The notes under the pieces are model-generated. The model saw only the letters and a list, made by a program, of their open reading frames with translations. It was not told the DNA's origin and searched no databases. 64,000 nt of DNA from Petrosia ficiformis (Eukaryota; Porifera; Demospongiae; Haplosclerida; Petrosiidae). Positions within the stretch are counted from its first letter, which is position 1. Every line of letters starts with the position of its first letter. Made by a program: the position numbers and the translations under genes. This document shows positions 21,899-60,290 of the stretch, in pieces. The stretch lies in assembly GCA_947044365.1 (NCBI GenBank), contig OX345636.1:1259501-1323500 (forward strand), in the 5' to 3' direction.

Positions 21899-24800
21899 AT
21901 TCACTTCGTGAGTATGCGTAGGTAAGGAAATTGCGTCATTCCTGGGGGCTCCATCAATTAATGGGTGTGGCGCGTAATAGAATGAGCACACGAACTCGGC
22001 AGAAAGAAAGCTACTTGTAGGGAATTAGAAACTGGAACTACTAGCTAACTATTCTACCTGAAATATATTCCTAAAATTCTACAAGATCTTTAAAAAGTAA
22101 AGAGAGTAGATAATCAAAATAATATCTATAATAGGCTGTTGTGTTTCAGGCATGATAAAGTCAGCCATGATTACTGAATGCTGGACACCATAAAGCAATC
22201 ATAGGGATACTTTTTTTCTGTATTATACACTTGTTAATATTAGAATAAAGTATTTGTAATTTAATATATTATGTGTACTGATTTTACTTACAGAGATGAC
22301 ACAAAAAATTTACTTTGCTTTGATGTGAACCATCATGCAGTGTAGTTTAATCTCACTATTGTCATGACATATCCAGTATATGGTTACACCCATTTTAGCA
22401 TTCCTAATTGTAATTGCCTACTTTGTACTTGCAATTCAAAGCTATATACTATTTTACCTTACTGAGAAGGTAAACTGTTTGTTGGTGTTTATGTGTTTAT
22501 GGTTACATGAATAATGATAGATGATATTCAGTGCAAACCTCACTTCTTTATTTTGATTTTATATACTAATAATGATGTTACCACACATATATTAACCCTT
22601 AGAAGACTGATGTCACATATATGTGACATTTCACCCCTACATGGTTCGGAGTGTGTTCCTAGCAATATGAAGCTCTCCAAATGCTTGTAATTGGTGTCAG
22701 GCACAAGCCCATGAATATGGCTAAAAAAGTTGATGGTTTTTCGGCTGCCCATTGGCCTAAATAACAACTATGGGGGGATTTTAAAAGGAGGTGTCCCCCG
22801 TTGATGGGGGTTCAAAGGGGGCACAGCTCCCTCAATGCCCACGCAAATTGTGATTTCAGTGACCCCGCCTACGCGCTCTGGTGAGTTCCTGAGACATTTC
22901 CCTTGGTGTAAAAGCTGAAATCATGGGTTTAGCTGGTACCGACATGCAGTGGGGTCATTTTGTTTGCCACAGTTCCAATCAAAAGAGGGAGAGCACTGCA
23001 TTTGATTTAATCCTACGAAGCGCTTGGGGACTTTCAAGTCCCGGTAAGCAAGTTGGTGGAAGTAGTACTCCATGTCGGAAAAGGAGCCAAGTTTGGGGTA
23101 GAGAAAGTGAACGGTGGCCAAAATATATGCAATAGAGTCGCCAGTGTTGGAAATGGGAAGAATTTTGAAAACAAGCTCTGTCCTCTAAGGGTTATATATG
23201 TTATTTGTATTGCTGTGACTTTTTTTGCATTTGAATTTCTGAAAAACTATTATCGCATAATTATAATTAATTACAATTATTGTCTGTAAATGGTCCGACT
23301 AAATATTAGTGATCATGGATTTGAACTAGCCTACTAGTTACAAACCATAAATATGCATTGTAGTGCTTCAATTAATTCATATAGTGATAGTATATAGTTG
23401 ATGGTATTCAAATATTTACACAATGAGGCCTATTACAGACACTTAGTTGTACATTACAAGAAATAGTTTATTATTGAATACAAGAAATTAATTACTTTCT
23501 AGTGTTTATTTTCAATTAATGCTGAAGTAGACAATGATTGTAATCATGATGACTTCAGTAAAGAGTTATTCAAATATCAATATTAGTTAAGAACACAAAA
23601 ACAGGACTTGCTTTATAATCAACTTCAAAAATTCCTTCAAATGAATTGAACATGATATGACTACACAACTAGACAAATAAGCATAGATATACAATGAATG
23701 TGGTTTTTATGTAGTCCAATCATCTCAAGTCATTAATTACACTAGCTATTGTCAGCACTATCATAGTATTAACCTATCAAATTATCCTACAACCCTGAAA
23801 CTACTGTTCAATTAAATATTGGTACCAACAAGCTATCAATTCATTTCAACTACATTGCACTTATAATAATATATTAGACTTAAACCTCTTAATCAAAATG
23901 TGGACCGTCTACCGAAGGTGGATGAGACCCTAGCACAGATGTCAGGAGGCAAAGTTTTCTCCAAATTGGATACTAATAGTGGGTTTTGGCAGATACCTCC
24001 TCACTACCTTCATTACTCCATCCAGATGGTATTGCTTTAATAAAATACCATCTGGCATATCAAGCGCCCCCGAACACTTTCAGAAAAGGATTTGTCAAAT
24101 TCTCACGGGCTTACAAGGAGTTCTGTGCCTAATGGATGATGTCCTCGTATTTGGAAGGGATCAGAAAGAGCATGACAAGAGATTGTTTGCGGCCCTCACA
24201 AAGATACAAACAGCTGGAGTCACCCTGAACCCAAGCAAATGTGAGTTTAACAAATGTCAATTAAAATATATTGGTCATCTCATAGATCAAAGAGGCATCC
24301 AAGCAGACCCAGTCAGGACGTCAGCTATCAGGGAGATGAAGCCTCCAACAAATGTCTCAGAACTCAGACGTTTCATGGGAATGGTGCACCAACTGGGCAA
24401 GTTTTCCAGTAATCTGGCTGATCTCACCCAACCTCTTCGTCAACTCCTCAGTAAAAATTCTACATGGATGTTGGGTCCCGCACAAGACAAACCCTTCTCT
24501 GATATCAAAATAGAGTTGTCTAAACCAGCAATACTTTCTCTTTACAATCCACAGGCACCAACAAAGATATCTGAAGATGCATCTTTCTATGGTCTGGGAC
24601 CCTTATCGTTTGCATCACGGACAATCACTGAGACAGAATGCCGGTATGGCCAGATTGAGACGGAAGCCCTAGCTATCACATGGGCATGTGAAAAGTTCTC
24701 AACTTATCTTGGGCATGATGTTCCCCATTGAAACTGACCACAAACCTCTGATACCACTTCTAGGAAGTAGGAACCAAGCATCTCGATAGTCTACCACCAT

Positions 24801-26629
24801 GAATACTTCAATTTTGTTTACGTTTAGGAAGCTATGATTACACATCACACATGTGCCAGGAAAACTCCTTTATACTGCTGATATGTTATCGAGAGCACCT
24901 GCCCCTATTGATGAAAATGATAGCAGATTACAGGAGGAAACCGATGCAGTGATGGAACTCTGTGTCATTTATCAGCCAGCAAAGAGAGACTAGATGAATA
25001 CTGGAAGTCACAAGCCACAGATCCCATTTGCTCTTCTGTTATAACATTTTGCCAACACGGTTGGCCAGAGAAGAGCAGAATTGAACCAATTATCACACCA
25101 TACTGGCTGGTTAGTGGTGAACTGACATTTGACAATAACAACCTCGTGCTCTATGGCAAATGTATTGTTGCTCCCAAAGCACTCCAAAGACAAACACTAT
25201 TGAAGATTCATCAAGGCCATCAGGGAATTCAAAGATGTCGTGTACTGCCAACACGTCTGTGTGGTGGCCTGGACTTCTCAGTGAAATCAACAACATGGTG
25301 AAGCAGTGTTCTACCTGTGCCAGAGACTATAAACAACCTAAGTAGTCAATGATTCCATCTCCGTTACCTGTCTACCCATGGTAAAAAGTAGGATCAGACT
25401 TATTCCACTTCAAAGGTGCCAACTACATATTAGCAGTTGATTATTTCTCCAGGTACCCAGACATTTGTAAACTATCAAATATAACTTCCTACAGTATTCG
25501 TTGTAAGTGATAATGGCCCTCAGTATTCCTCTCTACAGTTTGCTGAATTTGCAAAAATTTATGGTTTCAACCATGTGACCAGTAGTCCTTACTTCCCACA
25601 GAGCAATGGACAAGCAGAAAGCACTGTACAAACAGTGAAGAATCTTCTGAAAGACTCTATAGATCATCACATGGCCCTGCTGACATATCGTTCAACTCAG
25701 TTCCCATGGTGTAATCTCTCCCCAGCCAAACTATTGATGGGAAGACGAATTCGATCAAACATCCTTCTTATCAAAGACCAGCTAGTCCCAAAATGGGAGT
25801 TTTTGGAGGAGTTCAAAAACAACAACATATCTGTTAAAGAAAATCAGAAAAGAGTCTACGACCATCGTCACAGGACCAGACCACTTCCTGTACTCTCAGA
25901 TGACGCTGATGTATGGATCACAAGAGACACTCAACCAATCTCTGGCAGAGTGAATGCATCTGGTAACACACCCAGATCGTACCTAGTGGAAATACCCAGT
26001 GGACAGGTCAGGAGGAATCGCCATCACCTCAACAAAGTGCCTGAAACCTTCCATTTATCCTCAAGTTCCAACACCATCTTTCCTCAAGTTCCAACACCAT
26101 CATTCCCCAAATATCATCAAGACTCGGTCACGAACAGGAAGTTTAATTCATCCCCCAGATCAATTCGGATATCCTCCTTGAAAAAGGAGATGTGGAATAT
26201 GACTCACAATAATTAGTAAAATATTATTGTAGTATTTAACATTGTTGTAATTGTTGTAGTATCTTCTGCGTCTGTCCAATTATTGTAGTCCTTATAATGT
26301 TGTAAGATAGACGGCTATTCTATATTTAGTACATTCTATATTTAGCTACCAGTAAGTAAAATACGAAATGATTTTGTTTTAGAAGAAATTTTTTGAGAGT
26401 TAAGTCAATAATAACACATCCTGATTCATTAGTTATTTATTAAAGTTCAGTTAATACTGTATAATAATTTTCTTGTATATAATAGTGCAGTAGTACATCC
26501 AGTAGCCCAGTCAAGTTGATGTCATATATATTAGATATGTCTATTTTAATATAAACTGTTATCAATTTACAAATCAACTATAATTATATCACTGAAAACA
26601 TTACCATTGAGAAACCAACTATATAACTC

Positions 26630-33509: not shown

Positions 33510-35006
33510 GTATGTGTTGTATTAGGAGATGTCAAACATTCTCAGAGATTGTCTGTGTCTTCTTTACATCCATGGGTGGCTGTTGAACCCAATGGAATTG
33601 TCCTATGTGCTCACTGTACCTGTATGGCAGGTCTAGGTGAGGGCATGCTCTCATGTAGCTGCACTTTTGTTCACCATGGAAATAAATACCAAATTGTTGA
33701 ACAACACATCATGTACATCATTAGCTTATTCTTGGTTACCTGTAATGCAGAAAGTAGACTACTCACCTATTGCCAAAATTGATTTTTCTTCTCCTAAAAG
33801 TAAGATGAAAAAGCTTTCCTCTTGTAATTCACATCATGACTTGAATTTGCCACCACCAAAGGTTTCAAAACCTACAGAAGATGAGCTTGAAACATTGTTC
33901 AAGGATTTATCAGATGCCGGTAATCCTGTTATCTTATCTATTGTGCCACCATATTGTGAAAAGTTTGTTCCACAAAGCTTATATTGCCTTCCAAAGCCTT
34001 TTACTGATTTGTTTGATGAAAAATTACTTGATGTTTCATACCCTGAGCTCCTAGAAAAAAGCCATGAAACATTTACCAAGCAGAAGATTACTGCTGAACA
34101 CGCAAATATGTTAGAGAAAGCAACAAGGAGTCAGTCAAATTCAACACGGTGGTTTAGGCATAGGGCATAGAGCTGACCGAATAACAGCCTCTCGTTTTAA
34201 AGCTGCTGCTCACACTAACATAGCTGAGCCTTCTAAATCCTTAATCAGGGCTATTTGTTATCCTGAAAGTACTAGATTCTCTACAGAAGCAACAAAATGG
34301 AGTTGTAAGCATGAAGATGATGCTCGGAATGAGTTTATTATATTAAGTCAGAAAGATCACGAAAACTTCACACTTTCATTAAGTGGATTAATAGTAGATC
34401 CCCAGTATCCTCATTTGGGTGCCTCACCAGATGGTTTCATACAGTGTGATTGTTGTGGTCCAGGCACATTGGAGATTAAATGTCCTTTTACCTGCAAAAA
34501 CAGATCATTTGCTGAAGCATGTGAAAATTCCAAGTTTTGCTTGGAGAAGGTTGGTGAAACACATTCTCTTGAAAGATGCCATTCTTACTTCTATCAAATA
34601 CAGCTCCAAATGAAACTTTCAAAAACAAAATAATTATTGTGATTTTGTAACTTGGAGGGAGACTGAATTGTTAGTCATTCGTGTTTTAATTGATGAAGAA
34701 TTTATTGATAATGCTGTATCAAAAGCAACTGTTTTTTACAAAATTGGAATATTGCCTGAGCTATTGGGCAAATGGTACTCTAGAGCACCTACTTATCCAA
34801 CAATTGTGACTGATTTGACTCAAGATGAAAGTTCTGCATGCAGTACAAGTTCTATGGTTGATTGTTGGTGCTTTTGCAGGAATGGAGAATATGGAAAAAT
34901 GGTTTTGTGTGACTGTGCAATTCAGTGGTTTCATATAGATTGTCTCAAACTAGCTGAAGTACCAAAAGGCAAATGGTATTGTCCTGTATGTACAAAAGGA
35001 AAATGA
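33510..35006 (+). pseudogene. SWIM / YqaJ-nuclease / PHD protein of copy A, frameshifted
   Basis: Domain order in shifting frames: N-terminal region (VVLGDVKHSQRLSVSSLHPW); a SWIM zinc finger as CTCMAGLGE then, one frame over, ACSHVAALLF (CxC...CxH); a YqaJ-type nuclease with LGASPDGF and LEIKCPF (the E-x-K of the PD-(D/E)XK fold); and a C-terminal PHD finger (CWCFCRNGEYGKMVLCD to WYCPVCTKGK). YqaJ-like proteins are recombination exonucleases, here presumably helping transposition. At least three frameshifts (near 33640, 34155 and 34625) break it. The PHD finger lacks three residues present in copy B. Confidence 0.82.
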
Positions 35007-35133: not shown

Positions 35134-36080
35134 CTATTCAAATGGAACGATGGATTCACAACAGTTACACAGAGCACAACAAACTACAACTACTTTACCG
35201 ATCATACTTAAATCTGATGAAGAGTCACACATAACACTGATAGGAAGCACTCCCCCCAGGTAGGTAAATTTCTGTCTCAATAAACCAATCACTCTCTCTA
35301 CATGTATCCGAACATGGGCTACTTCACATGCAGTATCAACTTCTAATTGGCTAAGTTGTGGTTTGCCCTTAGTAAATGGTGGTAATTTAACTTCTGCACA
35401 GTATATCCCAATGGACTCTTGAATGTTGAATCCTTGGTCAGCTAACACAAGATCGCCTGGAAGAAGATTATTTAGAATTCCACAGTGCTCAGTTACATGG
35501 AGGTCAGAAACTCTACCACCCCAACCTTTAGATATAAAAGACACCGATCCTTGAGGTGTAATACCAATCAAAAATTTAACAGTATTGTGATGTTTATATT
35601 GTGAGTAGGTTTGTGCCCGAGCTTTCAATCTATTAGGCCGCTCACAGACAAGACTTTTAGTTTTACTATGGAGTCCAATACCTGTAATAGAATAGTCAGT
35701 ACATGTTCCCTTCTCAGAAGTTTCTTCAGTTATTGCTTGCACAGCAGTGTCCATTACATGTGACTCATTAGATTGTTCATCGTCATCCTGCAGTTCATCA
35801 TCAATACTACTACTGCATACTTTTCTCCTAACTTTGCATCTCTCATACCTGATGAGATCTGCACTTGCCTTTCTCTTAACTGGAGAACTAATAAAATTAA
35901 ATATGGTAGGACTATATGCAGGGGAAAGAGGATCATCAGACTTCTTTCCACCAACAAAATGAACACTGCACAACCAAGAATAATCACTTGGTTGCCAGTT
36001 TTTCCTCTTTACTGCAGATATCTAGAGTGCTCTACGTTCTCGTTTGAAGGAAATCGGTAAAAACTAACAGCAGAATCTCC
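35134..36080 (-). pseudogene. THAP/DDE transposase of copy A, internally deleted
   Basis: An open frame of 279 codons (35134-35973) plus a frameshifted THAP start up to about 36080. Compared with copy B, roughly 145 residues are lost between SKTKSLV and [12 protein letters not shown]. That removes the helix-turn-helix and the first catalytic Asp. The second Asp (LVLADQGF) and the Glu ([11 protein letters not shown]) remain. The THAP finger is broken by small deletions relative to copy B. Inactive. Confidence 0.85.
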
Positions 36081-37075: not shown

Positions 37076-38485
37076 CTATTGAAATGGAATAATAGATTCA
37101 CAACAGTTACACAGAGCACAACAAACTACAACTACTTTATCGATCATACTTAAATCTGATGAAGAGTCACACATGATAACATTGATAGGCAGCACTCCCC
37201 CCAGGTAGGTAAATTTCTGTCTCAATAAACCAATCACTCTCTCTACATGTATCCGAACATGGGCTACTTCACGTGCAGTATCAACTTCTAATTGGCTAAG
37301 TTGTGGTTTGCCCTTAGTAAATGGTGGTAATTTAACTTCTGCACAGTATATCCCAATGGACTCTTGAATGTTGAATCCTCGGTCAGCTAACACAAGATCG
37401 CCTGGAAGAAGATTATTTAGAATTCCACAGTGCTCAGTTAGATGGAGGTCAGAAACTCTACCACCCCAACCTTTAGATATAAAAGACACCGATCCTTGAG
37501 GTGTAATACCGATCAAAAATTTAACAGTATTGTGATGTTTATATTGTGAGTAGGTTTGTGCCCGAGCTTTCAATCTATTAGGCCGCTCACAGAAAACCTC
37601 AAAACAGTCAATAATACAGATACACTTCCTAAAATGATTTCTAAAAACCATAGGCATTGTTTTTTTCACTACACCACGATCAGGCCACTTAATTAATGGT
37701 TTTAAACGAATATACATAGCTTCTATCCAGGTTTTAAATTTTCTTGAGACAGTGGACTGATGTACTCCAAATCTATAAGCAAGATCTTGGTCTGCCAGGT
37801 TTAATCGTAATTTCATTAGAGTCATTAAAAATTGCTGCAACTTTGGCAGAGTATTCCTACCATGGTTTACTACAGATGGTGAAACAAATTTGTATATTGT
37901 CATTAAAATAGAATAGGATGGAAGTCCACTGTAATACTTAACTTTCCTATCATTCTGTTTTAATTCTTCCTCAGTAAGAGAATATGTCTGACTGATTAAC
38001 CTTTCAGTGTCATGTACAAGACTTTTACTATGTAGTCCGATACCTGTAATAGAATAGTCAGTACATGTTCCCTTCTCAGAAGTTTCAGTTATTGTTTGCA
38101 CAGCAGTGTCCATTACATGTGACTCATTAGATTGTTCATCGTCATCCTGCAGTTCATCTTCAATACTACTACTGCATACTTTTCTCCTAACTTTGCACCT
38201 CTCATACCTGATGAGATCTGCACTTGCCTTTCTCTTAACTGGAGAACTAATAAAATTAAATATGGTAGGAATATATGCAGGGGAAAGAGGATCATCAGAC
38301 TTCTTTCCACCAACAAAATGAACACTGCACAACCAAGAATAATCACTTGGTTGCCAGTTTTTCCTTTTTACTGCAGATATCAAGAGTGCTCTACGTCCTT
38401 CGTTTGAAGGAAATCGGTAAAAACTAACAGCAGAATCTTTTATAGACCGATTAGAACAACCAATAGCACAACAACTCTTAACCAT
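37076..38485 (-). CDS. THAP-domain DDE transposase, intact 469-aa frame
   Basis: A complete open frame from ATG (38485) to TGA. A THAP C2CH zinc finger occupies about 1-75, with C6, C10, C53 and H56 (WLCSVHF). An acidic linker follows, then a helix-turn-helix near 215-255 (DLAYRFGVHQSTVSRKF). A DDE superfamily-4 nuclease core carries D293 (CIIDCFEVF), D368 (LVLADRGF) and E415 ([11 protein letters not shown]). The protein would recognise the terminal repeats and cut DNA. All three catalytic residues are present and no stop or shift is seen, so activity is possible, though the partner gene on the same copy is deleted. The start codon matches the family's THAP position. Confidence 0.92.
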   Translation of the reverse strand: MVKSCCAIGCSNRSIKDSAVSFYRFPSNEGRRALLISAVKRKNWQPSDYSWLCSVHFVGGKKSDDPLSPAYIPTIFNFISSPVKRKASADLIRYERCKVRRKVCSSSIEDELQDDDEQSNESHVMDTAVQTITETSEKGTCTDYSITGIGLHSKSLVHDTERLISQTYSLTEEELKQNDRKVKYYSGLPSYSILMTIYKFVSPSVVNHGRNTLPKLQQFLMTLMKLRLNLADQDLAYRFGVHQSTVSRKFKTWIEAMYIRLKPLIKWPDRGVVKKTMPMVFRNHFRKCICIIDCFEVFCERPNRLKARAQTYSQYKHHNTVKFLIGITPQGSVSFISKGWGGRVSDLHLTEHCGILNNLLPGDLVLADRGFNIQESIGIYCAEVKLPPFTKGKPQLSQLEVDTAREVAHVRIHVERVIGLLRQKFTYLGGVLPINVIMCDSSSDLSMIDKVVVVCCALCNCCESIIPFQ

Positions 38486-38569
38486 TATTCCCTTTTGCCA
38501 CTCAATATGGCGGACGTAATCTCCGCCCCCTCACGCGCATTTATGCATAAGGTCTATACCATTTAAGTT

Positions 38570-49471: not shown

Positions 49472-50398
49472 AGCCCAGCTGGCCAGGTCCAAATCAAACA
49501 TCTCATACACCTGTATGAACAAGTTAACTGAAACTTGGTGAAGGCCGGGGTAATTAAACCACCAAAGATACCAAACACTAAATCTAAGTATATACATGAT
49601 GACTTGAGATGGATATCCATACTAAAAAAAATACAAAGACACCAAATTTTATATTTTAACAGGATTGGCTTTAGAAGGTATCGCTCCTCCCCTGGTAAAT
49701 TTCAATTATCATGAGTTTGGCAATACATAATGAATAATTATATTGTGACAAATGATTCATAAAGTTATTGGTATTGGGATATAATTATACAATACACTAA
49801 CCTCTATAGCCTAATATGTCTGATATATATATATATATTTATAGCACTTTCACGCCTAACATCAAAGGTACCGACTGTTCTATATTTTCCACTTTTTTTA
49901 CCACATCCTGTTCTATATTTTCCGGATGTTGTTTATAACACTAGAAAACAATGCGCTTACCTCGGGTTTAGTGCAAGAATACTAAGTACTTCATTCTTCT
50001 TCTCCATTGCATCAATCCAAAGTACTATAAACCAGTTAAAGCACCGGGTTTGCTCGTGTTGTCTTGGAAAATATAGCACTGGGGGTGGGGTCTCAAAGCC
50101 TCATATGTATTAATTATTACTAACTATTAGCTACTAATGTACATGTAGTATGTATGTTTCTTACTGCCCATGCCCATTGTCTCTAATAACTCAATGCCAC
50201 CATTTTTATATATTTAGATGTACACACTGTCATCATGAATTTCTTTAATGACAGGAAATTATTAATTGTTAGGTTATACCACTTGAGACTAAACAATAGA
50301 GAAAGTCAATGATTTACCCAACCAGTAGTTTTGGTATTAGGTTTCTGTTATGTCAGCAAATTTTGTCACAATCTTAATTTATTTGTGTTATTATATAT
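49441..50398. repeat. Segmental duplication, copy 2
   Basis: Partner of 43812-44821. This copy retains the whole tRNA-like sequence. It lacks the stretch around TAAAGCACTTTGCTACTCCT present in copy 1. Confidence 0.92.
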
Positions 50399-52051
50399 AT
50401 AAATGATTGCCTCACTCATAAAAATTGCATAATTTTTATTTATAAGACTAAAATTCTTGTCTGCGTAGAACTGACCTTTTAGTGTTGGAATGAGGCATAC
50501 TCACTCAACTCGACTAATACTATGCATGTACAGATCTGTACCTTTGTTTATCTCATTGCATCGATCATTATTTTTTAAGTTAAAAAGTATCCAAGGAAGG
50601 GGCCAATGCCTATTATCGTTAGCAGTAATTACTGTTGTAAACACTTTATATCCTCTATACCTATTTATAATAATTAAAATTGAGGCATGGTAAACTGTAA
50701 TATTGGATTGTTATCATCGATACCAGCATTTTTGACTTATAGGTGGCAAATTTTGGGTGCGACAATATCAAAATAACACATCCCAAACATGATTTTTTGT
50801 CACTGTTAGGATGTCTACCATTAATATTCACACAGTTACTAACCCAAACCTGCACCACTATCTTTATTTGTATTTGTGCTCCACTGTGTATGTGTATTTA
50901 CTAGGGTTGGGATCTGAAATCGATTATCAAATCAGAATAGGACAATTAATACAATGATTAATAATGTGAATATGTATATACATGTGTTTATAGAGTGGAT
51001 CTGTAGCATTAAGTTCATCATACTCATACTTTTTAGCTATTTGAATTTAGAGGCCATATCCTTGTATTTATCACATGATTATCACACAATGTGGTATAAC
51101 ATACTACACAATATAAATACAACTTATAACCTTTTCAGCAACATGTAAGGAATAAAGTACTGCATTAGTGAGGTGTGCCATGACTTGTAGTCACACATAT
51201 TGTATTATACATGTGTTATTTGTAAGACTGATAATTATTGTAATTGTTGTCATAATATAAGATGTGCACCCTGCCCAGAAATGGATACACAATACTACAA
51301 TATATATATAGTCAGATGGGTGGGCGGAGGTGCATAATCCTCATGAACGAGGTATGCCTTTTTGTTTTATGGCTATAATTCTAGAAATACCCTAATCCCA
51401 CTAATGAACAAAGGGGGAGGGGTCAACATAGTACAAGTATATATTATGACCTTCCACTTATAAATTACATGTTCAACTAATTAGGCACTTGTTTGCATGT
51501 TAAGATCAACATGTAGTTTGTAGATATGTAGTTCTGCCTTATTATTAATGATTACTGATGCATATGATTAATGATAATTATATTTAATATGATATAGCTA
51601 ACTCTATATGGGAATAGAATTTTGTAAAATTCACTAGTGTGTATAGTATAATAATTACTTCTTGTAATTGTGAAGCTTTATGTAGACAATTTTAAATAGG
51701 AAATGTGTTTATTGAAATTCTTCATCTGAAATGTAATGTTGAAGTATCATGTGTAAATGTGTATTATTAAGTATGTAGATAAATTAAATGTTTATATAGC
51801 AGATGACCTCCAGTAACACTTCAGAGAATCTCAGTGCAAATACAAATCACAGTCTTTGCTAATGCCAGCCCATACACATGTATCTTCACTAGATCAGTGT
51901 TTCCCCCAAGAATGCAACACCAGCCAGTAATAGTAATACAATTCCTTCTCTCTTACTTTTTTCCATCGTGCACTCCTGACAGATTACTTGTATATCAAAT
52001 TTTAACAGAAAAAAGTTGATAATGTAATATATAACAGAAAAAAGTTGATAA

Positions 52052-52089
<38 letters not shown>

Positions 52090-52273
52090 TTTGCTACTCT
52101 GTGTGCATTAACAAGTGGGGTTAAAGCAATTGGTCGTTTTGTGGTGTCAGTATAATATATGTATGTAACAAAAAATTTTATATGTGGTTGCACTGTTTGC
52201 CCTTAGATTACTGAAGAAAGTTAAAGATCCCTGTTCAGTGAGGAGTAAGAATTTATTGTGCTGCATATCATAG
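50399..52273. other. No gene seen
   Basis: AT-rich sequence with an (AT)n run near 52057-52082. The words around 51793-51825 (GCAGATGACCTCCAG) recur inverted at 60410 and 60535. Nothing supports a gene. Confidence 0.5.
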
Positions 52274-52403
52274 ATGGTTGCCTGTAGTAAAAGAGCTCAT
52301 CAGTTTGATCCACACTGTATGGATGATGACGGTGATACCCCATTAAGCAAGGCTAGAAGTAATGGAAAACAACCTGTTGTGGATTACTTGCAAACAGCCA
52401 TAG
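52274..52403 (+). CDS. Orphan ankyrin-repeat exon
   Basis: One hundred and thirty nt, 43 codons plus one base (phase 1 out). Reads HQFDPHCMDDDGDTPLSKAR, then SNGKQPVVDYLQTAI. The end VVDYLQTAI parallels CVDILQTAM in exon 5 of the Death-domain gene. Acceptor ATATCATAG, donor GTACAT. It could be the start of a paralogue or a captured fragment. Confidence 0.65.
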
Positions 52404-52908
52404 GTACATTTATTGTTTATTTCTGTTTATGTATAATTTATATACAATTGTTTCGGTATGGAATAGATTCCAAATTCCCAATCTGCAAATTACCTGCCAT
52501 TATTTATGACACATAACACGTATTTAACATGCCACATCTTCAATATAATTATTTTGCTGTGAATGATTCAAACAATTGATCAGAGGCTATCATGTTAACC
52601 AGTGTGTTTGATTGAACTAGCCATATCATTTGTAGTTGTAGCACTAAACAAGAGAAAATTTATCCTTATGATTGATTGCTTTGTAGTGATGATCAACATG
52701 CCCAAAAGTCCTCCCATTGCACATTGGTGTACTTGAACCTGTTCTTTCCAGTTGTGTATACCACCTTATGTGATGTGCTAATTGCTCCACCTTGGGGTCA
52801 GAAATATTATATAGTTAATGATTAATGCATTAAACATTTCCACCTCACCTTGTGTGTTAAAAATATTGGTTATATGATGTGAGAAATACAATGTAAATAC
52901 ATGTGGAA

Positions 52909-53233
52909 TAGACATGATTTTTGGATCACGGTGAAAAAGGTCCACCTCTACTCATGTATAGTCAAGTGCCCCCACCACCATACCTCTTCCTTTCCCCATG
53001 ATAAAGGGATACATGTGTATCTACATGTATCTATCAACTGCCCCAAATCTTCACATACATGTACATAACAGATTATTGATAGCAATTAGTAATTATAATG
53101 AAATTACAACCATAATAAAATCATTATTATAATTATACTGCATGTGATAATAAATAAACAATGGTAGTGGAGTGAATGTTATGTAGGACTATTAGCATAC
53201 TATATAATATACATACATACATACATACATACA

Positions 53234-53270
<37 letters not shown>
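52909..53270. repeat. Dispersed repeat, copy 2 (empty site for the MITE)
   Basis: Homologous to 40627-41270 without the 284-bp insert; the target GTATCTAC is single at about 53011-53018. A further partial copy runs 53330-53460. Ends in ATAC and AT microsatellites. Confidence 0.9.
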
Positions 53271-53280
<10 letters not shown>

Positions 53281-53627
53281 ATATGTCTATTATATACAGT
53301 ATGCTAATAGGTCCTAATTATTATAATTATACTCCATGTAAAAATGAATAATAAATAAATAAACAATGGGGGTGGAGTGAATGTTATGTAGGACCTGTTA
53401 GCATACTATATAATATACATACATAATGTACATACATATATATATATACATGTATATCATCCATTCATTCATTCATTCATTCATGCCATTCCATTATTTG
53501 ATTTATCATGTATCTATTTATAGTTATATCTGGTAACGTGTATATTTATTGTCCCTGGCCCTCAATAGGACCATACATACCCAGATTAGCAAAATGGGTG
53601 TGGACAATCCGATTAGCAAATCGGGTG

Positions 53628-53895
53628 TGGTCAAACTTTATTGGTCAAAATGCTAAATATTAACTTACATAAATGCTGTGTCATTGTACCACTTGACACA
53701 GATAGTCTAGCGGGGTTAAAGACATCTTGGTGGGATTGCAACTCTTCCCTCTCTCTACATACATGTATCAGAAAATGCCTATAGAGTCCTGTTTACCAAT
53801 GCATCAGTAAATACATGTAATGATATTTACTTCCAAAAACTAACTAAATGACCCATAAAATAATTTATTTGATATACAGTATGTAACTGTCGTTT
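53628..53895. repeat. Dispersed repeat (partner 48857-49120)
   Basis: Near-identical to 48857-49120 over about 260 bp. Confidence 0.9.
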
Positions 53896-53989
53896 ATTGA
53901 AAATGTTTTTTTTAATTATTTTTGTGTGTACACAGTATAATCAGATTGGCATTGCTTCCTTTTTGTATCCAAATTTTTACTTGTTTTGT

Positions 53990-54560
53990 AGTAGTTTAGA
54001 AGATAAACTGGACTATATCACAGTACAACACTAGGGCTACAGTCACTACAACTAACAGCACTATATACATTGTACATGCACATGTACATGTTTTGACTTG
54101 TACATGTACATGTTTTGACTTGTACATGTACATGTTTTGACATGTACATGTTAAAACTGTGGACATGTACAATTTCAAACAGTACCCCTTACCAGAATTA
54201 CTGGAATTATGAGTTTCGGTTTGAAAGACGAGATGTACAATGTATGTGTATATTTATGTACATGTACATGTATGTACTCTCAATACCTTTACCTGTATGT
54301 ACAGGTATTACCCTTATTTTTATGCTTTAAGAATTGAGCCCATGCTTCATAAGTACAACATCATACATATATATGCATGTACACATAATATGTTGCTTAG
54401 TATAATTACGGTCATACATGTACATGTATGCGCACTACATATGTTTAAAGCAATATGTATGTGGTGTGGGTCTCTGTCTATCTGTGTGTGTGTGTATGTA
54501 TACATGTACGTATGTATGTGTACTGTACATACATGTACATGTGTATGTAGTGTGTAGTGC
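53990..54560. repeat. ACATGT-rich low-complexity region
   Basis: Repeated ACATGTACATGT words; GTACATGTACATGTTTTGACTT repeats three times at 54080-54150. Because the words are self-complementary, both strands show false frames. Confidence 0.85.
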
Positions 54561-55109
54561 TAAAACAAATACTGCTTCTTGGTATTCGAATGCTCTCTTT
54601 TCTGAATACTTGAATATTCGCTTGCTTACTCATCATAACTCCGTTACAATAGATGTTTATAACAGCAACTTCTGTGTTTTCATTGTTCACTATCTCATCT
54701 ACAAGCCTTAGAAAACCAGTAATACGAAGCAAGAAACTTCTCAATAATCATTTGATTTCCTAAATAATTTGTTTCTGCACATGTGCAAACATTAAACGAA
54801 TAATTAAATACTAAAAATATAATCGAAAACCAAACGAATATCAATATTCGTTTCAGCATTAATACAGTATGTCTATGTGCATGTATACATACATGTCTGT
54901 TTATGCATACACATATATACGCACATATGTGTATATACTAAGACGTATATGAATGTCTGTATGTGGATAATTTATGATGCTGAATGTATGTGTATATGTG
55001 TATGTTTATGTTTAGGATCCAACAACTAGTATGTACTATGTACATATGAAGTGGAGAAGACAAACTTCAGCTGCTTGTGGTTGTAGTGACCAATATTTTT
55101 AAGACTGGT

Positions 55110-55246
55110 ACTAGTATTGAGGTCATGGTACTACATATTTTTGTAATATTGTGTAATTCTATTACATTATGAATTTGAGATGCACCATGCTGATGAGACC
55201 CAATAGGTCGAAACAATCTGATTTGTATATTCAGGTTGTCCATGGT
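55110..55246 (+). repeat. Ribozyme-bearing repeat, copy 1
   Basis: The hammerhead at 55185-55245 and about 80 bp upstream align with the minus strand of 60146-60290 (shared GTACTAG, ATTATGAATTTG/TTGTGAATTTGG). Two dispersed members of one element family. Confidence 0.7.
55185..55245 (+). ncRNA. Hammerhead ribozyme motif 1 (type I)
   Basis: Stem I strand CCATG (55185-55189); core CTGATGA (55190-55196); stem II GACC-CAATA-GGTC (55197-55209); core GAA then A13-C14; stem III ACAATCTGA (55213-55221) pairing with TCAGGTTGT (55231-55239) with one G-U and a 9-nt loop; cleavage base C at 55240 in a GTC triplet; stem I strand CATGG (55241-55245). Every invariant hammerhead position is present, and cleavage would fall between 55240 and 55241. 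Stem I is open outward, so type I. Such ribozymes occur in Penelope-like elements and retrozymes of animals. Confidence 0.88.
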
Positions 55247-55804
55247 TTGCTCTGAAAATAAAAATCTACTCACTAGCGATCGTTTATTGCTTGTATAATG
55301 CTATAATTATAGTAGAATCAATTAATACTCAGATTGTATTTGCCAGGTTGCATTACAATTATAATTGTAATTGAGGGTTAGTTACAATTATGTAATTGTA
55401 TGTTATTGTGTAATTGTACTGTAATTAGGAGCATTTGTATAGATGCTATTTTTAATCCAACAGATTTTCATTCATTAATCCCAAGTTGATTATTAATGCT
55501 TTCAATTTAGAATTGTACTAGCAGTATTGCTGTAATTATACTTTAATTGCATGCAACTGTACATGTAATTGTCACATAATTATAATTCAACAGTGGTTGC
55601 CTTTGTAATTGAACCCAGACCTGCTTGTAATGATCTAATTCTTCTTAACTTGCAACATATTACAACGAAAAAAACAAGAAAATTTTGTATCATCATATTA
55701 GAAAAAACAAGACATCATATTAGATTTTGTATCATCATAATTATATCCAAACTATCATTATATTTCCTAAAGATTTTGACAACAGGTTCTAGTAACTAAA
55801 CAGA

Positions 55805-56594
55805 TTAAGAAGATTGAGAAATTTGGTCTACACAGCCTTTAAAGAAACGTAAAAGTTTTTTATAACCTTCATCATCATGGCCAGGGGTCTGGATGGTAGC
55901 TCCTGACGCTATGTGTAATTTTCTATTTTTTGTTACTGTACAATACCCCAGTGCCCATGTAAACGAGTTTGTTAGTATAAATGGTAGTGATGCACCTAGT
56001 GGCAAATTTTCTGACAAAATGTGTACTTCCCTCAGCATTTGGGCGAAAGATTTGGTTGCTCCAATATGGCAACTTATATCTTGCCGTTTAACTTCCACAA
56101 TCAGAAATGGTTTGTTGTTCCCACTATGGGTAAAATGAAACATATAATCAGTGAATGAAGAAATTTGGATATTTTCACACATGTTGAGTATCGGCAGAAA
56201 AGTAAAAAAAACCTTGTGACATGCATCTATTTCAGTGGTATTGCACATAAAAATCTTGTTGATCATCGCCACATGTTCAATAATGTTTTTTATAGTTTCT
56301 TGGTCTGCAGTTGTTTCTGTTCCTTCTAAATTTAATAGTGGAATATCTTCTAATTTGTCGTTTGTAATTATAGTTTTCTCAACAGCCTTCCACTGTATAC
56401 TGGACGGATTTGGCAACTCGGCTACCTGAAGTAAAAGTTGTGAATTCATGAAAATAGACACAAATTCCATTTATAGCCTCACTGACCGTTTGCCAGCTTG
56501 TTTCTGTAGAAACAAACACATCATAAAGTCCTTTGTTATTATGTAAGAACAACAAATGGTTTAATTTAGAGCTATACAATCTCCTACAATTCAC
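55805..56594 (-). CDS. Two-exon gene with PD-(D/E)XK-like motif
   Basis: Exon 1 from ATG 56594 to 56487 (36 codons), a 61-bp intron (GTCAGT to TTCAG), exon 2 from 56425 to the stop at 55805 (206 codons plus stop). Phase 0 throughout, 242 residues. The segment SGNNKPFLIVEVKRQDISCH fits the hydrophobic strand plus E-x-K of PD-(D/E)XK nuclease-like folds, as in Crinkler-type or retrotransposon-linked proteins; an upstream candidate Asp lies in SSFTDYMFHF. The rest is helical. No signal peptide. The function is unproven; it may be a nuclease or an inactive relative. Confidence 0.6.
56426..56486 (-). other. 61-bp intron of the PD-(D/E)XK-like gene
   Basis: The minus strand starts GTCAGTGAGG and ends TTTTACTTCAG. 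Removing it joins WQT to VAELPNP in phase 0, whereas reading through meets an in-frame stop. The size is typical of very compact metazoan introns. Confidence 0.65.
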
Positions 56595-57599
56595 TTAAAC
56601 ATGATTGGAAAAAACACTGCAATAATTACTGTTATTCAGGGTCAGTGTTGCTGCTAAGCGTGCATCTGATGCTATTCCAGACATAGTGATCAGTGCTCTG
56701 ATGTGCAATTGTTAAGTCTGCAATGGCTACACGTTCTACTGGCCTTACCTGTTCAAAGCAGCTAAAAGTGAGTTGCTTCGTTGCTTTAGAGTATCACTTG
56801 GGAGTTAGGTGAGCAGTCTTTAATAAGTTTATGAAACATAATTAAGCATTCCAATTATTGTGATGCATCATAATCTTGTTGACTAGGTCAGAAAAAGACG
56901 GTTTGACAGACATGTAATTTCTTAACTCCAAGACTACACTTTGTACATTACATTATGTACACACCCCTCTGACCCTACCCATTTTCAGAACAACCTCTGA
57001 TCTCCAATCTATATACTGATACCCTTAGTCTCGTCCCCAGTTGCCCATGTTCTTTATGAGTGAGAGGCCGTCTGGGTACACTTAACAACTTGGGATTAGG
57101 GACAGTGTTTTGGCAAATTGTAGTATACTCGTGATCAGAGGATTGATAAAATTACTAACAATATGCAAGTTGCAAACCAAGAATAGACTCTACCATTCCC
57201 GTGGATATCAAGAAGCTTTTTTGAAGTTAGCATTCCCTTCTTAAAAGGAGTAGCTTAATTAAGGTTGTTCACAAATTTTTAGAAAACAGTGAGGTTGTTT
57301 GTTCACAAAACAGACAAAACAATATGTGCCAGAGATTTAATTGCTACTGTAGATAGCCCACAAGCACTAATAAAAATAAGAGGTGTACTTATGTTAGTGT
57401 TTTGCTCATCAATAGTAATCAAAAAATCAAATTATTGATGATGTCACCAAGAAATGATGAATGAAGTGAAAGTGTACCAGACACCCTCTCACTCATTATG
57501 GAATTACAAATCACAGTTCTATTAGCATTGTTACAGAAAATCCTGAACAGGAAGTTTTGATTAAAAAACCACAATAATGGCTTCCTCTCAATTAGTAAC
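56595..57599. other. No gene seen
   Basis: Upstream of the minus-strand gene. Contains short frames only; nothing recognised. Confidence 0.45.
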
Positions 57600-58330
57600 A
57601 TGGTAGTTACCCTTGCCGCGTAGCGTAGGCAAAAGGGTACAGTAATCGTTTTGTCTGTGTGTGTGTGTGTGTTAGCAATTTTTCTTGAAAAATAAAAACA
57701 TTGACATTTCAAAAGGGGTACTGGTACACTTCAAATTATACAAGGAAAAAAATAACGTAGGAATTCTTCTAAAACCTTTTTGTTGTAAAGTTATGACAAG
57801 TTTTATAACTCACAGTTACCGTTTCACGACTTTAAGATGAAACGAGGGCAATAACGAGAGTAAATATGGACACACAAAACACAGGTGATCCTCTTGCATG
57901 GCTGTCACTAGCCAAGAAAATGTAATGGTTGCTACTACATCACCATTGATGCAACATAGAGAGCTACCTAGCTCCCCCTACAGGTATGTGCACGTACGTG
58001 CATGCTTGCATACTAAACACGTGGTAGAGGTGATTCATTTTCACACGGAGACTTTAGAGGTAGACTTGAGAACTTTTTCGAAGGAAAACAGAGAATAAGA
58101 TGTAAGATATATATACATTTCTTTCATTCATATTCTTATTTTGTCTTTTAGGATATAAAGTTATATATATATATATATAACAGTTTTAATTAATGCCCAT
58201 AAATGTTTTCAAATTTGTATTTCTGTAACAAAAGTGTTGTTTGTTTCATACACTTTATTATATATATATTTTTTAAATGGAGTGCTTTGTATTACTTTGC
58301 CACGTAGGCGAGGGTCCCGTCCCGACGGCA
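57600..58330. repeat. Inverted dispersed repeat, copy 2
   Basis: Partner of 38926-39510 in the opposite orientation. Starts with the hairpin TACCCTTGCC...GGCAAAAGGGTA (57607-57640) and a short (GT)n, typical of a transposon end. It has an extra segment of about 80 bp near 57760-57830 relative to copy 1. Confidence 0.8.
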
Positions 58331-58401
58331 CTAGTTTTGGTAGGCACTTAGTAGTAATGAGTAATATATGCAAGCAACGTTTAATTAAGGGAAGCATATA
58401 G

Positions 58402-58550
58402 TGTTGTTTTAGTTAGGTCAGTACAAAACATTTTAGTTTTGGTTTTAATTAGCAAATCCAAACTCACATAATAATAATTAATTAATTAATTCAGAAGTTT
58501 CCTTAGTTTAGTTAACTGAAAGATTGCCTAGTTTTAGTAAGTACTTAATT
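58402..58550. mobile_element. Partial relative of the 40753 MITE
   Basis: Begins TAGTGTTGTTTTAGTT, the same end as the 284-bp MITE, followed by TTTTAGTTTTGG and GTTTAGTTAACTGAAAG words. The far end is not clear. Confidence 0.6.
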
Positions 58551-58686
58551 AATAACTGTAGAATCATGTACAACATCATTGATTGGAATAAGTAATGTGT
58601 TGTGTAGATGTCTGTAGACACCAACGGGTTATAAATAATAGTAGGTACAAACATGTATATATGTATATAATTATATATGCACATAA

Positions 58687-58968
58687 TAGGGCTGGGCAAT
58701 ATTTTGATTATCGTGAAAATCGTGATTAAAATTTCCTGTGCCATATCGTGGTTGCAAAAATAATGATTATTGTGCCATAACTTCAGGTTTTCAGTACTAT
58801 CACATCTAAATCAGTTTTTCAACACTGTTTACTAAACTAATAAAAGGTATCAATTTGATTGTTGAATGAAATCTACATACACATGTAAGGTAGCCAATAA
58901 TCGCTATAATCGTGATACTTGCACAGACAATAATCATTGACTCATATTTTCATAATCACCCATCCCTA
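58687..58968. mobile_element. 282-bp hAT-type MITE
   Basis: Ends TAGGGCTGGGCAATATTTTG and, inverted, TAGGGATGGGTGATTATGAAAATA. The flanking 8 bp GCACATAA and GCACATAG match at 7 of 8. Subterminal ATTATCGTGAAAATCGTGAT words resemble those of the element at 15707. Confidence 0.82.
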
Positions 58969-59183
58969 GCACATAGTTCAAGTCCTTGGTGGAGTGTAGG
59001 GTGCCAGGATGGATGGGTAGGTTTTCTACAAGGGTACCTTACTCCACAGATCCACAAACTGGATTTATATAGGAAAATGACCATCTACCAGTCTCTTTAC
59101 TTATCATACCTATTTTTCTCTTTCTACTTCCCGACTCTGTCGAACCGATAGTACTCATGATTAGAGTCAGATACGAACTGTGT

Positions 59184-59187
59184 GCGT

Positions 59188-59222
<35 letters not shown>

Positions 59223-59720
59223 TCATACGCATACATACATAATTCTGGTCTGTAGCAACTGTTAGATAATAACCGATCTCTAAGAGGTTAGCTAGTTACC
59301 GACTTAGCTATTAGCTAAGGGGGCCGGCGTTACAGAGAGAGAGAGAGAGTCATACGCATACATGAGTAAATTATAGAAATTCAACACTGCAACCATCAAA
59401 ACGTACAAGTAACTTACCAAAAAGATGAATTCTGGTCTGTAGCAACTATTAGATAATAACCGATCTCTAAGAGGTTAGCTAGTTACCGACTTAGCTATTA
59501 GCTAAGGGGGCCGGCGTTACAGAGAGAGAGAGAGAGAGAGACATACGCATACATGAGTAAATTATAGAAATTCAACACTGCAACCATCAAAACGTACAAG
59601 TAACTTACCAAAAAGATGAATTCTGGTCTCTAGCAACTATTAGATAATAACCGATCTCTAAGAGGTTAGCTAGTTACCGACTTAGCTATTAGCTAAGGGG
59701 GCCGGCGTTACAGCCTTTTA
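59184..59720. repeat. About 190-bp tandem repeat with (GA)n
   Basis: A long (GA)n run (about 59188-59221) then two and a half units of about 190 bp, each ending CTAAGGGGGCCGGCGTTACAG. Units at 59332-59521 and 59522-59712 are almost identical; the first is partial. Each is separated by a GA run. Confidence 0.93.
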
Positions 59721-60140
59721 TATAATTTATGAGGTCAAACGTCACCGGTCATTGTCGTCTTGGTTGACATCAAATACAAGAAGCAAACATGGATTACAAC
59801 TAAGTGCAACAATTTGTTGCATCTGATAAACAAAGTTGTTCAAACCACTTAGTTTTGGCTTCCTCGAGCTCACGAGCAGGAGACCTAGTAGCTTTTTTTT
59901 TTTATTCAGGAAATACATGAAACCAGCAGTGTCTGACTGAAAGGACTTTAGAATGTACTGATTCCATTACAAGCATTATTTACTCACGGGATTCTTTTGT
60001 AATGTCATGTTGCTGTGCATTTAGTATAAATAATATAAAACTGTACATGCCGGACAAACTGACTCCTACATCCCGGTTTGAAGTGACTGTTGTTGTTGAA
60101 TTGACAGTGGAATTGAAGAGAATTAATTATTTCTTGTAAG
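59721..60140. other. No gene seen
   Basis: Sequence between the tandem array and the ribozyme repeat. Nothing recognised. Confidence 0.45.
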
Positions 60141-60145
60141 GGCAA

Positions 60146-60209
60146 CTGTGGACAATCTGAATATACATGTATACAGACTGTTTCGACCTATTGGGTCTCA
60201 TCAGCACAG
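60146..60209 (-). ncRNA. Hammerhead ribozyme motif 2 (type I)
   Basis: On the minus strand: stem I CTGTG (60209-60205), core CTGATGA (60204-60198), stem II GACC-CAATA-GGTC (60197-60185), core GAAA, stem III ACAGTCTG (60181-60174) with CAGATTGT (60159-60152), cleavage base C (complement of 60151), stem I CACAG (60150-60146). The core and stem II equal motif 1. Stem I differs by two compensatory pairs (CCATG/CATGG against CTGTG/CACAG), so pairing is kept despite divergence. Confidence 0.88.
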
Positions 60210-60290
60210 TGTATCCCAAATTCACAATACATTGTTACAGAATAATATGTTATGTAATGAAAATAAAGTCATCATATCTAGTACCTCAAG
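60146..60290 (-). repeat. Ribozyme-bearing repeat, copy 2
   Basis: Minus-strand counterpart of 55110-55246. Similarity extends upstream of the ribozyme for about 80 bp. Confidence 0.7.

Follow-up and report, generated by a model that had tools for sequence, protein, structure and literature searches.

Hammerhead ribozymes often face each other around predicted nuclease-like and NTPase-like genes in the sponge Petrosia ficiformis

Introduction

Hammerhead ribozymes are common in genomes and, to our knowledge, have no known function in most of the places where they occur. The amniote HH9 and HH10 hammerheads are known as few conserved copies, not as a paired repeat, and in R2-type retrotransposons a 5' hepatitis delta virus (HDV)-like ribozyme trims the read-through transcript at the 5' end of an element whose protein has a PD-(D/E)XK nuclease. 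Here we analyse a 64,000-nucleotide stretch of the genome of the sponge Petrosia ficiformis (GenBank assembly GCA_947044365.1, contig OX345636.1, positions 1,259,501 to 1,323,500; hereafter the window), in which a type I hammerhead at 55177-55253 is one of two convergent hammerheads on either side of an open reading frame (ORF), and we follow this arrangement through the genome.

The roles of genomic hammerheads are described as poorly known to date (PMC7229834). As far as excerpts of the sources go, animal non-LTR (non-long-terminal-repeat) retrozymes are direct tandem repeats of ~150-450 bp (PMC7229834, Cervera and de la Pena 2020); like them, the P. ficiformis copies are type I hammerheads of low G+C in a dispersed animal repeat, but unlike them most of these copies lie in facing orientation on either side of protein genes, at distances of 0.6-17 kb. 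Penelope-like elements and Terminons carry hammerheads, in minimal variants, in the terminal repeats of larger elements (PMC6431247, PMC7229834), a likeness to the present copies, which differ in having no tied GIY-YIG gene and no reverse transcriptase that could be recognised by eye. On the protein side, the NTPase-REase (nucleoside triphosphatase-restriction endonuclease) families of the Crinkler/RHS type are large, diverse and linked to transposable elements (Zhang et al. 2016, via PMC5289972); the excerpted accounts of them make no mention of hammerheads, and the ORFs considered here, unlike those families, have no Pfam match over the cut-off. Among the best matches in the open-licence PMC literature on hammerheads, no title or abstract opening describes hammerhead pairs around genes.

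Results

A type I hammerhead and its convergent partner

The features on which the argument turns are the following.

55177..55253, plus strand: hammerhead ribozyme 1, type I, CCAUG/CAUGG stem-I form (sequence, fold, sub-threshold Rfam matches, pairing in 25 distinct copies)
60140..60217, minus strand: hammerhead ribozyme 2, CUGUG/CACAG stem-I form, 5' end of the core at 60204 (script scan, sub-threshold Rfam matches)
55177..60217, no strand: cassette of two convergent hammerheads 5.0 kb apart with an ORF between them (scan, orientation counts)
55808..56470, minus strand: open frame of 221 amino acids with a predicted alpha-beta-beta-beta-alpha-beta nuclease-like fold and an E-V-K motif

An original prediction, made from the letters of this stretch, had placed the invariant core positions of a hammerhead, with a GUC in frame, at 55177-55253, and direct reading confirms it: CTGATGA (55190-55196), GAAA (55210-55213) and a GUC ending at 55240 provide the CUGAUGA, GAAA and NUH cleavage triplet of a type I hammerhead, placed around three helices with stem I open. 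The 4-bp stem II with its CAATA loop is as described (GACC/GGTC, 55197-55209), and so is stem III with its 9-nt loop (55213-55239), which consists of eight base pairs, CAATCTGA/TCAGGTTG, and an A-U closing pair. The inner helix of stem I had been given as 5 bp and is in fact 6 bp, ACCATG at 55184-55189 pairing with CATGGT at 55241-55246. Its proposed outward extension stands for the window copy, where the GC pairing is present, but not as a general property, the pairing being absent in the 21 of 25 distinct copies whose bulge reads ATAC; the outer part of stem I retained in most copies is GGG/CCC, which is GAG/CTC in the window. The minimum free-energy fold of the hammerhead 1 strand is the hammerhead itself (-24.9 kcal/mol, z -2.81; 2 of 200 shuffles equally good). 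The interval 55177-55253 is thus confirmed as a type I hammerhead, with cleavage predicted, from core and pairing, between 55240 and 55241 as first proposed. For hammerhead 2, cleavage is predicted between 60151 and 60150. The two cores face each other (55190 on the plus strand, 60204 on the minus strand). The ORF that they enclose shares the minus strand with hammerhead 2 and is antisense to hammerhead 1.

No Rfam hammerhead model reached its gathering score, the covariance check that the original prediction had proposed: at gathering scores the sole match in the window is a tRNA, and no match above the cut-off was found with the hammerhead models in 14 further loci. In a local Rfam scan hammerhead 1 scored 28.3 bits with RAGATH-1 (RF03152; cut-off 56.3) and 24.5 bits with HH9 (RF02275; cut-off 52), and hammerhead 2 scored, again below threshold, 31.0 bits with RF03152 and 28.8 bits with RF02275 (E 1.7e-5). 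The latter is its best Rfam E-value, and the places of the stem-I bulge and of loop II match those of the amniote HH9/HH10 hammerheads, from which it nevertheless differs in falling short of their 52 bits. The top Hammerhead_1 match genome-wide reached 33.4 bits against a cut-off of 34. We name these elements hammerheads despite the scores because the core and the pairing are present, the cut-off being a curation threshold and not a defining part; the family is well supported while lying below curated cut-offs, narrowly so for Hammerhead_1.

A dispersed family with two stem-I forms

The genome searched comprises 191,215,263 bases in 29 contigs, the window being C1:1259501-1323500. The core pattern occurs at 223 exact places (98 forward, 125 reverse) and the same pattern written backwards at none, which bears out the earlier description of a dispersed repeat; its copies are spread over at least nine contigs (C1, C2, C3, C6, C9, C10, C13, C14 and C15). 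Two stem-I forms account for 216 of the 223 places, CACTGTG with 122 and CACCATG with 94, and the 3' strand differs accordingly, CTGTG pairing with CACAG and CCATG with CATGG. The same core pattern, a generic one, is also present in at least 120 stretches of IMG/VR viral contigs, several of which have two same-strand copies 0.2-1.4 kb apart.

Covariation was examined in 25 distinct copies taken from fetched loci and the window, a set that is not a sample of all 223, with the outer helix paired by hand and a one-base shift between the two stem-I forms. In the inner helix of stem I, position 3 is A-U in 14 copies and G-C in 9, and position 4 is C-G in 13 and U-A in 9; a G-U wobble intermediate is found in one copy (L038), leaving 1 and 2 unpaired cells, respectively. 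The middle pair of the outer part is G-C in 21 copies, A-U in 2, G-U in 1 and mismatched in 1. Stem III tolerates more, position 6 being unpaired in 7/25 copies and position 8 in 3/25, and loop III ranges from 4 to 23 nt; H17 is C in 24/25. Loop II is CAATA in 24/25 copies and stem II is near-invariant, in part by construction since the search pattern includes stem II. Stem III, at 8-9 bp, may set the present copies apart from the minimal hammerhead variants of Penelope-like elements and Terminons: the helix here is 8 bp plus the closing pair, with position 6 unpaired in the copies just mentioned.

Conservation is centred on the ribozyme, and the flanks of diverged copies are unrelated. In 13 copies hand-picked for diversity, mean pairwise identity reaches 0.98 for the opening part of the core and 0.77 for the 20 bases that precede it; it is 0.90 ahead of the cleavage site and 0.71 past it, dropping to 0.27-0.40 farther out. 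Core identity is partly by construction because the copies were found by their core, while the arms of stems I and III lie outside the search pattern. In copy L016 the block held in common with other CTGTG copies spans only -22 to about +71 around the start of the core.

Convergent pairs and the genes between them

Orientation was counted on 194 of the 223 places (CTGTG 100 of 122, CATG 94 of 94), both lists being complete on C1 and C2. On these two contigs 135 copies form 40 neighbour pairs within 20 kb, 34 of them convergent, 4 divergent, 1 plus-plus and 1 minus-minus, and 68 of the 135 copies sit in a convergent pair. Among all 194 listed copies, 35 of 50 neighbour pairs are convergent, compared with a mean of 11.2 and a maximum of 22 in 5000 trials in which strands were shuffled within contigs. 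Convergent pairs are spaced by 574 to 16,982 bp and combine the two forms (12 CTGTG/CTGTG, 21 mixed, 2 CATG/CATG). Other arrangements are also seen: CATG copies form arrays at C6:5.47-6.35 Mb, C10:4.87-5.86 Mb and C3:1.82-2.25 Mb, in which most copies share a strand and are separated by kilobases to tens of kilobases, and any CTGTG partners would fall outside the counted list; and at L025 4826-5543, 718 bp align with their own reverse complement at 90%, each arm containing a CATG-type hammerhead.

The ORFs between convergent pairs belong to several diverged families, four of which (those of the window ORF and of the ORFs in loci L020, L018 and L037) were searched against the genome; exon matches merged by hand gave 61 gene places, which we compared with the 194 listed hammerheads within 8 kb. 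A sense hammerhead lies upstream at 23 of the 61 and an antisense hammerhead downstream at 19, and 16 places are flanked on both sides with both hammerheads pointing inward. All 42 listed flanking hammerheads are sense-upstream or antisense-downstream, and none takes the other orientation. Upstream hammerheads are of the CUGUG form in 22 of 23 cases, downstream ones of the CCAUG form in 13 of 19. The rule extends to distant relatives: among places with less than 60% protein identity to the query, 11 of 35 have a hammerhead in the expected position, and three L037-like places at 27-29% identity have one on both sides. Six unlisted hammerheads beside such genes (in L016, L018 and L024, two on C13 and one on C1) obey it as well.

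Some gene places that appear empty actually hold diverged or unlisted hammerheads. Another of the empty places, a C1 copy of the window ORF (87% identity, place 27035461), lacks a hammerhead throughout the 1.46 kb fetched downstream, and its homology stops ~0.16 kb beyond the gene match. Within one hammerhead-bracketed interval, L021 8863-9900 encodes a piggyBac-type DDE_Tnp_1_7 transposase (Pfam match on 9221-9658), probably a nested insertion.

Predicted proteins of the cassettes

The original prediction had reported no protein nearby, which is wrong: an ORF is close by, and hammerhead 1 forms its downstream end in antisense orientation. Fold comparison of the ORF's low-confidence model shows a likeness to type IIG restriction nucleases. 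In the L037 protein, residues 16-225 of a model likewise of low confidence resemble P-loop NTPases, and a search of PDB sequences gave six weak matches, the best being a tRNA kinase over the P-loop (E 0.016); the secondary-structure order of the C-terminal region, outside the compared residues, could fit a nuclease. On these models the cassette genes are predicted, with low confidence, to encode PD-(D/E)XK nuclease-like and P-loop NTPase proteins. A putative P-loop NTPase domain followed by nuclease-like motifs (seen by eye) makes the L037 protein resemble the Crinkler/RHS-type proteins as excerpted accounts present them. Pfam searches of 14 ORFs gave none above the curated cut-off, including the ORFs between convergent pairs, and weak matches for three (L018, L037, L022; E 0.026-0.29); the 14 also include a GIY-YIG-like ORF recognised by eye. 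The listed fold-comparison matches showed no solved Crinkler-type protein, an absence that excludes nothing.

Boundaries and duplicated copies

Homology between cassettes runs past the ribozymes, for ~350-650 bp outside the hammerhead on the CTGTG side and for up to ~3 kb on the CATG side. In the window it covers one further feature.

50344..56152, no strand: left outer flank, hammerhead 1 and first part of the inside, shared in pieces with L012 at 88-96% identity

The left limit at 50344 is the end of the fetched L012 stretch, and the true outer end was not found; the window from ~51463 to 55791 is also shared with copy L010. On the CTGTG side, L009 and L010 are 97.7% identical over 4.3 kb. 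Both ends of a cassette are inverted repeats of one another, as the ends of a DNA transposon are, over the hammerhead block of ~80-120 bp, and in L037 over ~400 bp at 68%. A cassette of the L018 type matches between C2 and C13 over ~2.7 kb, with hammerheads ~0.2 kb inside both ends.

Two readings of these comparisons were dropped: (i) that the C2/C13 match is a clean 2.7-kb insertion (8197-10888 of the joined C2 stretch), since a C1 copy matches C2 for 2 kb farther and no target-site duplication was seen; and (ii) that L009 and L010 have the same ends and different insides, since part of L009 reads N.

Other elements in the window

Elsewhere the window holds Ty3/gypsy-like pieces at 23934-26216 (RVT_1, RNase H and a sub-threshold integrase match), an ORF with a YqaJ-like viral recombinase domain at 34115-34630 (E 1.6e-17), and an ORF with a THAP domain and a DDE_Tnp_4 transposase at 37079-38530, beside which 35134-36021 is, by eye, a shorter relative.

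Discussion

We propose that hammerhead 1 would be one end of a two-ended gene cassette, and that cassettes of this kind, with inverted hammerhead ends and nuclease-like and NTPase-like genes, are probably mobile and use their ribozymes to trim read-through RNA; we infer both the mobility and the cleavage, and judge the account as a whole to stand in even balance. Type I cleavage takes place on the gene side of each ribozyme, so RNA reading in from outside, on either strand, would cut itself just inside the cassette and shed its outer leader, giving a product RNA that begins at the cassette with a 5'-OH. Such trimming would release cassette RNA from flanking transcripts, and cleavage would mark or weaken antisense RNA from the far end. 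Movement is suggested by the sequence comparisons because copies on at least nine contigs have unrelated flanks; duplication must also be at work because there are tandem arrays and shared flanks. The cassettes would thus have spread as mobile or formerly mobile units with their own nuclease, assisted by segmental and tandem duplication. Since the two ends are inverted copies, the ribozyme block may double as the DNA end for the encoded nuclease, and we tentatively entertain, with rather less conviction than the account above, a self-spreading nuclease cassette whose inverted complete hammerheads would be both ribozyme and substrate end for its own nuclease-like protein, the genes between them being swapped or diversified like selfish killer or conflict genes. 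R2-type retrotransposons are a partial parallel; here, unlike in R2, the ribozyme has the hammerhead and not the HDV fold, it is at both ends, and no reverse transcriptase was recognised. The mirror-image arrangement matches none of the ribozyme-carrying elements compared.

Several observations weigh against this proposal. Of the 135 listed copies on C1 and C2, 67 are outside any convergent pair, and at 35 of the 61 gene places the 8 kb to either side contain no listed hammerhead. C3 has at least five same-strand pairs 1.7-3.0 kb apart, namely CATG and CTGTG copies in L014 (4957/7961, 3.0 kb), L015 (5005/3304, 1.7 kb) and L017 (5033/2723, 2.3 kb) and a further two minus-strand matches, each ~1.8 kb from a CATG copy on that strand; these five are absent from the counted lists, and adding them brings the convergent fraction to 35/55. 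In 20 ten-kilobase loci, 11 have two hammerheads, 7 convergent and 4 direct, and 9 have a single one; in L018 the order is plus, plus, minus. The outer homology stops at different points in different copies, so that there is no fixed outer terminus, and no target-site duplication was seen among the compared C2, C13 and C1 copies, whose ends differ. In L009 and L010, and likewise in a C1/C2 pair, the shared sequence continues for kilobases past the hammerheads, in the manner of segmental duplications. Few independent changes may lie behind the two stem-I forms. The queries and their near-identical copies are not independent support for the orientation rule because the gene families were chosen from hammerhead loci; the distant ones are independent. 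Finally, confidence in both structure models is low (mean pLDDT, the predicted local distance difference test score, 50.9 and 61.2), and the L037 comparison spans residues 16-225 only, the C-terminal half of the model lying outside it.

The main rival, which we consider less likely than the proposal, is a host multigene family of nuclease and NTPase genes spread by duplication only, without transposition, in which the hammerheads would be RNA-processing elements of flanks or untranslated regions. Duplication is plainly visible: at C2:5364565-5422385 four tandem units of ~17.5 kb each carry a convergent CTGTG pair ~5 kb apart, enclosing an NTPase-type open gene 93-100% identical to the query, and same-strand CATG-type arrays are present on C3, C6 and C10. 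That duplicated copies take in flanks beyond the ribozymes and show no target-site duplications is also what this reading expects. It has more difficulty with the ribozyme itself, which is near-identical across loci whose genes share only 27-55% identity or whose flanks are unrelated; duplication alone would need strong selection or conversion to keep it so, and the spread of the copies over at least nine contigs counts against it too.

The remaining alternatives fare much worse. It is improbable that the conserved block is a protein-binding DNA end that merely resembles a hammerhead: the near-invariance of stem II and CAATA, in part a product of the search, and the inversion at two ends would suit such an end, but all catalytic core positions are present, and stem I varies in a paired way while the loop of stem III is free in length, as a ribozyme predicts and a linear binding site would not.

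A Penelope-like or Terminon remnant, with hammerheads in possibly inverted terminal repeats, was one of the two origins first suggested, and the position of the hammerheads in such elements (as reported in the excerpts of PMC6431247 and PMC7229834) speaks for it, as does the abundance of Penelope-type GIY-YIG domains, recognised by eye, with 151 matches in the genome. Two of these lie in hammerhead loci (L015 7239-7634 and L017 7298-7669), on the strand opposite to their hammerheads and without a Pfam match. Against this, a listed hammerhead lies within 10 kb of just three of the 30 best-scoring GIY-YIG places, two of the three being in one C3 cluster, and no reverse transcriptase was recognised by eye, no profile search having been made, among the ORF clusters that the fetched loci and the window have in common. 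The suggestion is not supported, and we hold it very improbable.

The other origin first suggested, a retrozyme, finds no support either and has hardly any probability left. In this reading a short non-coding repeat would yield RNA that circularises after cleavage at two direct hammerheads; the type of ribozyme, the low G+C and the dispersal fit (compare PMC7229834, as excerpted), and from same-strand pairs 1.7-3.4 kb apart (L014, L015, L017, L018) RNA of that size could be excised. On C3 the chemistry we propose could likewise excise RNA of 1.7-3.0 kb from the direct pairs. No direct units of 150-450 bp were found among the 194 listed copies, the 20 loci and the window, however: same-strand neighbours come no nearer to each other than 5.1 kb among the listed copies and 1.7 kb in the fetched loci (L015), and the sole listed pair under 1 kb is convergent. 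A convergent pair would give no monomer because a transcript across it carries one working ribozyme.

Integrated DNA of an ambisense, delta-like circular RNA agent with a hammerhead per polarity is equally far-fetched: one hammerhead per strand around one gene, and the hammerheads of animal delta-like RNAs (PMC7936874, in excerpt), recall such an agent, but pair spacing varies from 0.6 to 17 kb among the listed copies, the encoded proteins are predicted to be nuclease-like and NTPase-like, and both ribozymes are complete with sequence on either side, not cut at the cleavage site.

The fixed geometry of hammerhead and gene ties a catalytic RNA to diversifying nuclease-like and NTPase-like families, as predicted from low-confidence models, in an early-branching animal. 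If the cassettes are mobile, they would be a ribozyme-ended element without a recognised reverse transcriptase, as judged by eye. The role of a genomic hammerhead thereby becomes testable, through RNA ends and the comparison of haplotypes.
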